This document shows, piece by piece, positions 1,118 through 35,442 of a stretch of DNA of 64,000 bases; position 1 is the stretch's first letter; every line of letters begins with the position of its first letter. Source of the DNA: an uncultured Geobacter sp. Its GTDB lineage: Bacteria; Desulfobacterota; Desulfuromonadia; Geobacterales; CAIOGM01. The DNA lies in NCBI GenBank assembly GCA_903857795.1, contig CAIOGM010000143.1:1-64000 (forward strand), in the 5' to 3' direction. The position numbers and the translations under genes were made by a program. The notes under the pieces are model-generated. The model was given only the letters and a program-made list of their open reading frames with translations, was not told where the DNA came from and did no database searches.

Positions 1118-1212
1118 GCATGGCATCCCTGCTGCCGTATCCCGTTCCTCGGGGACTTAGGCCAGCGGTTTTGCGTCCCGCCCTTTCGGACGGTTTGCCT
1201 TTTTCAAGCTGC
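1118..1212 (-). promoter_or_regulatory. GEMM-I (cyclic dinucleotide) riboswitch aptamer
   Basis: On the minus strand the leader of the 1-1044 gene contains GEMM hallmarks in order: AAGGCAAACC, a first hairpin capped by CGAAAG, GGGACGCAAAACC, GGCCTAAG (tetraloop receptor), and a second hairpin GGCA-GCAGGGA-TGCC. By family knowledge such RNAs sense c-di-GMP or, in Geobacter relatives, cGAMP. Aligned by eye with the Vc2 aptamer, the ligand-contacting position 20 appears to be G, which fits c-di-GMP but does not prove it. No U-run terminator is seen before the ribosome site, so control may be translational. The pair TTCGC/GCGAA (near 1075-1090) lies just before the SD. Confidence 0.85.
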
Positions 1213-33304: not shown

Positions 33305-33394
33305 GGAGAGATGTCCGAGCGGTTGAAGGAGCACGCCTGGAAAGCGTGTGTACGTTAACGCGTACCGAGGGTTCGAATCCCTCTCTCTCCGCCA
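33305..33394 (+). tRNA. tRNA-Ser (anticodon GGA)
   Basis: A 90-base class II tRNA with encoded CCA. The acceptor stem is GGAGAGA/TCTCTCC with discriminator G; the D-loop starts TGTCCGAGCGG. The anticodon loop CTGGAAA gives GGA, reading UCC and UCU. There is a long variable arm (GTACGTTAACGCGTAC) and a T-loop GGGTTCGAATCCC. A hairpin CCTGCCG...CGGCAGG with TTTG follows at about 33413-33440 and may end the transcript. Confidence 0.97.
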
Positions 33395-33452
33395 GTACCA
33401 CAATAACCCTGCCGTGGCGGCTCCGTCCGGCAGGTTTGTCCGTTTTGCGGAT

Positions 33453-33584
33453 GTTATGGGTACAACTGATAGCTGGGTCCCGCGCAATGGAAGGTTATGA
33501 ACTCCGCCAGGTCCGGAAGGAAGCAACGGCAGTAACCGGCTCCGTGTGCCGCGGGGCAACCCAGCTATCAGTTGTACCCATAAC
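33453..33584 (+). ncRNA. ffs: Signal recognition particle RNA (small bacterial type)
   Basis: The universally conserved apical core is present (AACTCCGCCAGGTCCGGAA, then GGAAGCAACGGCAGTA, at about 33498-33537), flanked by long complementary arms. The outer arms 33453-33478 and 33559-33584 pair perfectly over 26 bases. The RNA scaffolds Ffh for co-translational targeting of membrane proteins. The position between tRNA-Ser and dnaX is usual in this group. Exact ends are uncertain by a few bases; the mature RNA may be shorter than the full inverted repeat. Confidence 0.93.
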
Positions 33585-33730: not shown

Positions 33731-35442
33731 ATGTCGTATCTCGTCCTAGCCCGAAAATATCGTCCCCAGACCTTTGCCGATCTGGTCGGTCAGGAGCAGA
33801 TCAGCCGGGCCTTGACCAATGCGATGACCTCCGGCCGCATCGCCCACGCCTTTCTCTTCACCGGCGCCCGGGGGGTAGGGAAGACCAGCTCCGCGCGGAT
33901 TCTGGCCAAGGCGCTCAATTGTGAGCAGGGGAGCGGGACCGAGCCGTGCAATGTCTGCCCCGCCTGTCTGGAGATCACCGCCGGCAACGCAGTGGATGTG
34001 CTGGAGATCGACGGCGCCTCCAATACCGGAGTCGACGACGTCCGGGAGCTCCGGGATACCATCCGGTATCTTCCGGCCCGGGGGCGTTACAAGATTGTCA
34101 TCATCGACGAAGTCCATATGCTCTCCACCAACGCGTTCAACGCCCTGCTGAAGACGCTGGAAGAGCCTCCCCCCCACGTCAAATTTATCTTTGCCACCAC
34201 CGAGCCGCACAAACTCCCCATCACCATCCTCTCCCGCTGTCAGCGGTACGACTTCAAGCGGATACCGCTCAAGAAGATCGTGGCCCGGCTTGAGGAGATC
34301 GTCCGTCACGAGAAGATCAGCGTCACGGAGAGCGCCCTGAACGTGGTGGCCCGCAAGGGGGACGGGAGCATGCGGGACGCTCTCTCTACCCTGGATCAGG
34401 TCCTGGCCTTTTGTGGCGACAATGTGCTGGACGAAGATGTAGCGAGCCTCCTGGGGGTGGTGGACCGGCGGCTCCTTCTGGAGACATCCCAGGCGATCTT
34501 TGCCAGGGATGCGGCCGGAGTGCTCGACGCCGTGCGGCAGGTGGACTCCTTCGGCTACAGTATGCGCCAGTTCTGCCAGGAGCTCATGGAGCTGTTCCGG
34601 GTTCTCGCCATTCTCAAGGCGGTGAAGCAGCCGGGGGAGCTTCTGGACCTGGCTGATGCCGAGCTGGCGTTGCTGAAACAGCAGGCGGCCCCGCTTACCC
34701 TGGATGACCTGCAGCGGCAGATCACCCTCCTGATCAAGGCCGAGAGCGAGATGGCCCTCTCTTCCTTCCCCCGACTGGTGCTGGAGATGGCGCTGCTCCG
34801 CGCCGCGACTCTCCCCCCGGTGATTCCTATCGGAGATCTTCTGGAACGGCTGAAGAGTCTGGAGCGGGGAGTCCGGTCGGGTGGAGCCAGTGCCGTCCTC
34901 CCCCTGGCTGGGGAGCGGTTGTCGGTTGCCTCCTCGCCTCCGCTGGTAGTCCCCCCCCCGGCGCGACGCCGGCGTCTGCTCCTTCGCCCCCGGTTCCAAC
35001 GGCTTCGCCGGCGTCACTCCCGGCGCCCATGGCCGGGAGCGGCGACCCTTGGGGCGGCTTTGTGGCGTACGTCAAGGAGAAGAAGGCCCGCCTCGGGGCG
35101 TTTTTGGAGCACGGACACCCCCTTGGTCTCTCCCCGGTAAAGGTGGAGGTGGGGTTCCCCGGTGACTCCTTCTACTTCAGCAGCCTCTCGGAGCCCGAGG
35201 CGGTTGTGACCCTGAAAATCCTGGCGCGGGAGCATTTCGGTGGAGAACCGGAGGTCAAGATCGTCAAGTTGGCCGAATCCCGAGGGACGCTCCCCCCGAC
35301 GGTGCATGAAAAAAAAAAGCTCCGATCCGCTGAGAGCCTGAAGCAGGCCGAGGAGGAGTTGAAGAGGCATCCTCTCGTGGTTGCGGCGTTGGAGCTCTTC
35401 GGCGGGAAACTGGTGGTGGAGAAGGAAGCAGACGGCTCGTGA
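33731..35442 (+). CDS. dnaX: DNA polymerase III subunit tau/gamma, full length only with a -1 frameshift
   Basis: The ATG at 33731 opens a frame with the clamp-loader ATPase: Walker A GARGVGKTSSARILAKAL, the four-Cys zinc module CEQ...CNVCPACLE, IDEVHMLS and SRC. At 34951-34959 a run of nine C occurs. In frame 0 the protein then turns into an Arg-rich tail and stops at 35140 (469 residues). Reading one base back gives a Pro/Ala linker and a credible tau C-terminus (DPWGGFVAYVKEKKARLGAFLEHG... VVAALELFGGKLVVEKE) ending at 35442, about 570 residues in total. A second slippery site, A10 ending AAAAAAG, lies at 35309-35319. Programmed frameshifting, transcript slippage or a sequencing indel could explain the break. 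Confidence 0.9.

Follow-up and report, generated by a model that had tools for sequence, protein, structure and literature searches.

The window analysed here is a 64,000-nucleotide stretch of DNA from an uncultured Geobacter sp. (contig CAIOGM010000143.1), and the question it raises concerns dnaX. The family-like sequence of this gene leaves one reading frame and resumes in another at a run of nine C residues (C9). A preliminary description proposed that a programmed or slippage-based shift at this tract makes two forms of DnaX, and gave an indel error as the alternative. Is the C tract a decoding device, or is it a flaw in the sequence? The best joint explanation, to which we assign a probability of about 0.75, is that C9 is a miscounted C10 and that two DnaX forms arise by way of a run of ten A residues (A10), located about 350 bases 3' of C9 in the same gene. 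The features relevant to the C tract are as follows.

33731..34950, plus strand: dnaX frame 0, encoding clamp-loader domains I–III and the start of the linker (open reading frame; Pfam; NCBIfam PRK14965)
34951..34959, plus strand: C9 run at the switch of the family frame; most likely a C10 undercounted by one base (sequence; run-length table; congeners; breaks in the same genome)
34960..35140, plus strand: frame-0 continuation, Arg-rich and without family match, stop at 35138–35140 (open reading frame; PRK14965)
34960..35442, plus strand: −1 frame, encoding the end of the linker and tau domain V; stop at 35440–35442 (translation; PRK14965; dN/dS)

Translation of frame 0 runs from ATG 33731 to the stop at 35140 and ends in the Arg-rich tail. 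The −1 frame, read from 34960, yields 160 aa comprising a Pro/Ala linker and tau domain V, with its stop at 35440–35442. The N-terminal part of the gene (33731..34950) matches the Pfam families DNA_pol3_delta2, DNAX_ATPase_lid and DNA_pol3_gamma3. Against the NCBIfam model PRK14965 (gamma/tau, 578 positions), frame 0 covers positions 1–406 and the −1 frame covers positions 420–571. Because the two frames match successive positions of the model, the family frame really does switch at C9, as the preliminary description had recognized. Together, the two frames contain the parts of a tau protein, namely domains I–III and a C-terminal domain V (Pfam and NCBIfam; fold matches 5fkv_E and 2aya). A table of run lengths gives one continuous dnaX frame only with C7 or C10 (n = 1 mod 3); the earlier expectation that C8 or C11 would restore the frame was mistaken. 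Genes for tRNA-Ser (GGA) and the bacterial small SRP RNA adjoin dnaX upstream (window 33305–33569), and a c-di-GMP-I (GEMM) riboswitch aptamer (77.9 bits) lies on the minus strand at window positions 1119–1209.

Past C9, comparison of 363 nt of the −1 frame to congeners gave a dN of 0.14 and a dS of 0.8–1.3, values indicative of purifying selection on the tau frame. From this selection it follows that the cells produce tau, or did so until recently. Directly 3' of the run, nucleotides 34960–35030 are predicted to form a hairpin built on GACGCCGGCG / CGCCGGCGTC, with a folding energy of −33.2 kcal/mol (z −2.4). Only 15 of 659 window tiles fold equally well, and 1 of 200 shuffled sequences was as stable. 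Such a hairpin could aid a shift, and equally it could make the region hard to sequence.

Comparison of the tract among relatives, which the preliminary description had proposed, speaks against a device at C9 and in favor of an indel error. The two dnaX-bearing congeners (89% and 85% identical) carry tau in one open reading frame (607 and 624 aa, stop to stop), and neither has a C run or a frame break at the C9 site. More broadly, dnaX is present in 133 of 141 genomes of the order and forms one long frame in nearly all of them. Linker frame breaks are left in three of the 133 genes (that of the window, G045 and G116), at sites that differ, and the break in G116 needs a shift opposite in direction to that of the window. 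A break at the C9 site was found nowhere else among these 133 genes. As the congeners read one frame and the other linker breaks of the order differ in place and direction, the C tract is not a conserved site. G045 was considered as a parallel C8 case and rejected, since its −1 frame is family-like already upstream of C8 and the break lies elsewhere. Four apparently short dnaX genes (G113, G005, G056 and G083) were likewise rejected, being short only from contig ends, and G011 was set aside because of an assembly gap.

C/G runs of at least nine bases are not rare in this genome, which has about 180 of them in 179 contigs, so the C9 run itself is unremarkable. We sampled these runs by region and examined 77 with their flanks. 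Forty-three had coding sequence on both sides, on one strand. The frame is kept across 40 of these runs, and hence a consensus error at C9 is not certain; it is broken at the remaining three. Translation identified the broken genes as ribF, a copy of ftsH, and a gene for a pilB-like ATPase, and the breaks sit at C/G runs of 9–11 bases, at L197 (C92), L166 (C51) and L176 (C66). The only copy of ribF is open for 217 aa, compared to 356–372 aa in three congeners. In the broken copy of ftsH, the frame stays open for 349 aa, compared to 631–643 aa in two congeners, and a second ftsH copy is intact. We know of no programmed frameshift in ribF, ftsH or pilB-like genes. Because ribF and ftsH are intact in the congeners, long C/G runs appear to be miscounted in this assembly. 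All four breaks (dnaX, ribF, ftsH and the pilB-like gene) are explained by length errors of one base at such runs.

These data make a one-base undercall of C10 in the draft consensus the most likely reading of C9. With one frame in the congeners and similar breaks in other genes of the assembly, the indel error named as an alternative in the preliminary description is the best fit. With a true C10, tau would be encoded in a single open reading frame, as it is in the congeners. Our second choice, after a length error, is a genuine strain-level indel, with C9 and C10 alleles arising in the population by replication slippage, harmful or neutral and without a programmed role. Long mononucleotide runs do change length; in two sister species of another order (G168 and G180), the linker run is C10 in one and C8 in the other, and both genes are in frame. 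However, replication depends on tau, and such alleles would have to be present simultaneously in several housekeeping genes of this assembly, which makes this reading improbable. A programmed shift on C9 is not supported and very hard to credit: if C9 were real, lineage-specific slippage or a −1 ribosomal frameshift (on C_CCC_CCC or C_CCC_CCG, with the hairpin) would yield gamma as the frame-0 product to 35140 and tau as the shifted product, a scheme in keeping with the hairpin, the selection on the tau tail and the intact frame at most long C/G runs, yet the congeners lack both run and break, the rest of the order lacks them at this site, ribF, ftsH and the pilB-like gene share the defect, and dnaX already has a conserved candidate site downstream.

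That downstream site is the A10 run, which the preliminary description did not mention. The idea of two DnaX forms finds no support on the C tract but does find support at this other place in dnaX, which probably makes both forms at 35309–35318, judging from the sequence features listed here.

35309..35318, plus strand: A10 run within tau codons GAA AAA AAA AAG (35308–35319), the predicted slippage site (sequence; order-wide codon alignment)
35313–35319, plus strand: in-frame heptamer A_AAA_AAG (sequence, tau frame)
35331..35333, plus strand: TGA that a −1 shift or an inserted A would bring into frame; the predicted short form ends ...HEKKKAPIR (translation; order-wide −1 stop)

While we were looking for short frames, A9–A10 runs kept appearing in the relatives at one place near the end of tau. 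Such runs of at least nine A residues are rare in the window's genome, numbering 20 in 4.05 Mb. Translation of the window with one A added to the run gives EKKKAPIR*, and with one A removed EKKSSDPLRA*. The −1 stop comes 7 codons after the A run in the window, 4 codons after it in most of the order, and 13 codons after it in one congener.

To quantify conservation of the site, we aligned 114 intact dnaX genes of the order by codon and computed expectations from the codon usage of each gene. An initial site search mismatched a few loci (L099, L111 and L204), and the alignment-based counts were used. At least nine A residues occupy the site in 110 of the 114 genes (13.3 expected), a −1 stop falls within 7 codons of the run in 108 (46.8 expected), and the two occur together in 107 (6.7 expected); as the sequences are related, these expected values describe constraint, not probabilities. 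The usual −1 stop is a TGA formed by a T-ending codon before Asp or Glu, with T present in 100 of 114 genes, compared to an expectation of 22. The two Lys columns at the site are 99% and 100% AAA; among eleven other conserved Lys columns, ten are 16–41% AAA and one is 92%. Of 488 seven-codon windows, the one at the A-run site has the largest codon-identity excess (0.41, with the next distinct window at 0.29). Elsewhere in the alignment, columns 202 and 84, both in the N-terminal part, are a Glu column with 100% GAA and a Lys column with 92% AAA, far from usage elsewhere.

The exact heptamer of E. coli dnaX is in frame in 66 of the 114 genes, the window's included. In these AAG-type genes, codon 1 of the site is GAA (64/66) or GGA (2/66) and never GAG. 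All 39 Ser-type genes have AGY as codon 4, whereas AGY makes up about one-third of Ser codons gene-wide. Because codon 1 lies outside A_AAA_AAG and the Ser codon lies outside A_AAA_AAA, and both are nonetheless fixed, the run seems to be selected at a length of at least nine.

The A run is present in 22 of the 24 genera of the order that were sampled, and its carriers include Geomobilimonas luticola and Geobacter sp. H2geo. One sampled genus, g7 (G017 and G018; L204 and L248), is alone in having lost the run, with 3–4 A residues left. In this genus the −1 stop is at codon 13 instead of codon 4, so the near stop was lost alongside the run. Thirty-five dnaX genes sampled outside the order but within the class showed no A run at the site, most having an EER-like motif there, and thus the site arose in, or at the base of, the order. 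In two genomes (G007, L131; G137, L200), the length of the A run differs by one base, which puts a stop into the default frame shortly after the run and would make slippage necessary for tau. These could be sequence errors, or alleles with a reversed gamma/tau arrangement. In two MAGs, one of the Myxococcales (L038, A10, codon 424/435) and one of the Chitinispirillaceae (L075, A12, codon 400/405), dnaX ends a few codons after a long mid-gene A run, and these genes are candidates for a two-ORF type of dnaX.

The part of tau that would be removed by slippage can be described from an AlphaFold2 model.

35047..35271, plus strand: globular part of tau domain V, model residues 18–92 (AlphaFold2, pLDDT mostly >90; fold match 5fkv_E, 2aya)
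35302..35400, plus strand: C-terminal helix-turn-helix, model residues 103–123 and 126–135, lost in the predicted short form (AlphaFold2; E. coli counterpart)

The terminal helices are modelled with lower, moderate confidence, and the A run coincides with the start of the first of them; slippage would end tau immediately ahead of this helix-turn-helix. The best fold match of domain V is the C-terminal domain of E. coli tau in its polymerase complex (5fkv_E; probability 1.00, target TM 0.61, E 0.03); 2aya was also matched, and a search of the PDB with a sequence profile of the tau tail found nothing relevant. The site lies at 91–97% of the length of tau (mean 93%), with 37–49 residues following it in nearly all genes. 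In E. coli, the contact of tau with alpha involves residues 611 to at least 636, and tau cut at 618 shows negligible alpha binding, like gamma (PMC11470591).

We infer that RNA polymerase, and perhaps the ribosome too, slips on the 9–10 A residues. Part of the mRNA or of the product would then be out of frame, and translation would stop a few codons later. The short form would keep the clamp-loader domains and the globular domain V and lose about 40 C-terminal residues. With the loss of the helix-turn-helix, the E. coli counterpart of which binds Pol III alpha, the short form would be gamma-like, loading clamps without holding the polymerase.

Transcriptional slippage is the likely mechanism, favored over ribosomal frameshifting. 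The run consists of at least nine A residues on the sense strand, with tau in the zero frame, in the window as in nearly all of the order, and a length of at least nine has been reported for transcriptional slippage in Thermus (PMC1088944). In the window, stops are near in both non-zero frames. The run is also longer than a heptamer needs, as codon 1 is A-ending in every AAG-type gene and codon 4 is AGY in every Ser-type gene. Alternatively, the site could direct a −1 ribosomal frameshift as in E. coli (on A_AAA_AAG or A_AAA_AAA). The exact heptamer, in frame in well over half of the genes and in the tau frame of the window, is consistent with this idea, as is the location of the conserved stop in the −1 frame. 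But the avoidance of G at the end of codon 1 and the constant AGY at Ser are unneeded by the heptamers, and the run is kept at nine or more. Moreover, a Shine-Dalgarno-like stimulator was found at 0 of 66 sites (16 nt box, 4–20 nt upstream), and no clear stem-loop was found just 3' of the A run, with a z of 0.52 in the window and a mean z of −0.46 at sampled sites, compared to 0.09 in a control region. We therefore consider ribosomal frameshifting unlikely, though well short of negligible. That the A run has no decoding role, and reflects the EKK motif and codon-pair habits, is highly improbable: EKK is conserved in the order, yet Lys-Lys elsewhere in these genes uses all four codon pairs (AAA AAA in 28 of 97), bias in one direction is seen at the Glu, Ser and Lys codons and at the T before GA, and in genus g7 the loss of the run went with that of the near stop.

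On balance, we think it somewhat likely that these genes share an order-wide site of transcriptional slippage at the extreme 3' end of dnaX, which arose in or at the base of the order and trims only the polymerase-binding tail of tau. Such a site would separate clamp loading from polymerase tethering and set the ratio of the two DnaX forms. Slippage or frameshifting in dnaX is already known for Thermus, for E. coli and its relatives, and for the GeneTack set (PMC5009743, PMC3711429), and according to a 2012 review, frameshift signatures are missing from most dnaX genes (PMC3290774). Within the limited set of journals covered, our literature search on frameshifting or slippage in Geobacter dnaX turned up no report of this site. 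How widespread gamma forms are in bacteria beyond the enterics and Thermus is unsettled, and the site described here, with its late A run and selected stop throughout an order, offers a directly testable case. It suggests that loss of the polymerase-binding tail alone can yield a gamma-like form. The C9 tract also carries a lesson for genome scans: where a frame breaks at a long C/G run, housekeeping genes of that assembly should be inspected for comparison.

Three known systems provide points of comparison. In Thermus thermophilus, dnaX undergoes transcriptional slippage on A9 (Larsen et al. 2000, as related in PMC1088944 and PMC5009743). The site described here is similar in having 9–10 A residues on the sense strand late in the gene (seven-eighths of the way in Thermus, ∼93% here), with tau in one open reading frame, stops near in both other frames, and no need for ribosomal stimulators. 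It differs in lying further 3', such that only the terminal helix-turn-helix after domain V is removed, and in that many members of the order also have the E. coli heptamer; slippage here is predicted from sequence. E. coli dnaX, which uses a −1 ribosomal shift, shares with the majority of these genes the same in-frame heptamer, followed soon by a −1 stop that gives a shorter product. Unlike in E. coli, the A run exceeds the length that the heptamer needs, and is accompanied by neither a Shine-Dalgarno element nor a clear stem-loop. Finally, in the two-ORF dnaX genes of the GeneTack set, e.g. those of Chlorobium and Chloroherpeton, a poly-A run of ∼7–10 joins two frames (Antonov et al. 2013, PMC3711429). 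The genes of this order likewise have a poly-A run in dnaX, and G007 and G137 resemble the two-ORF type, though they may be errors. In the GeneTack genes, however, tau needs the shift, whereas here tau is the zero-frame product.
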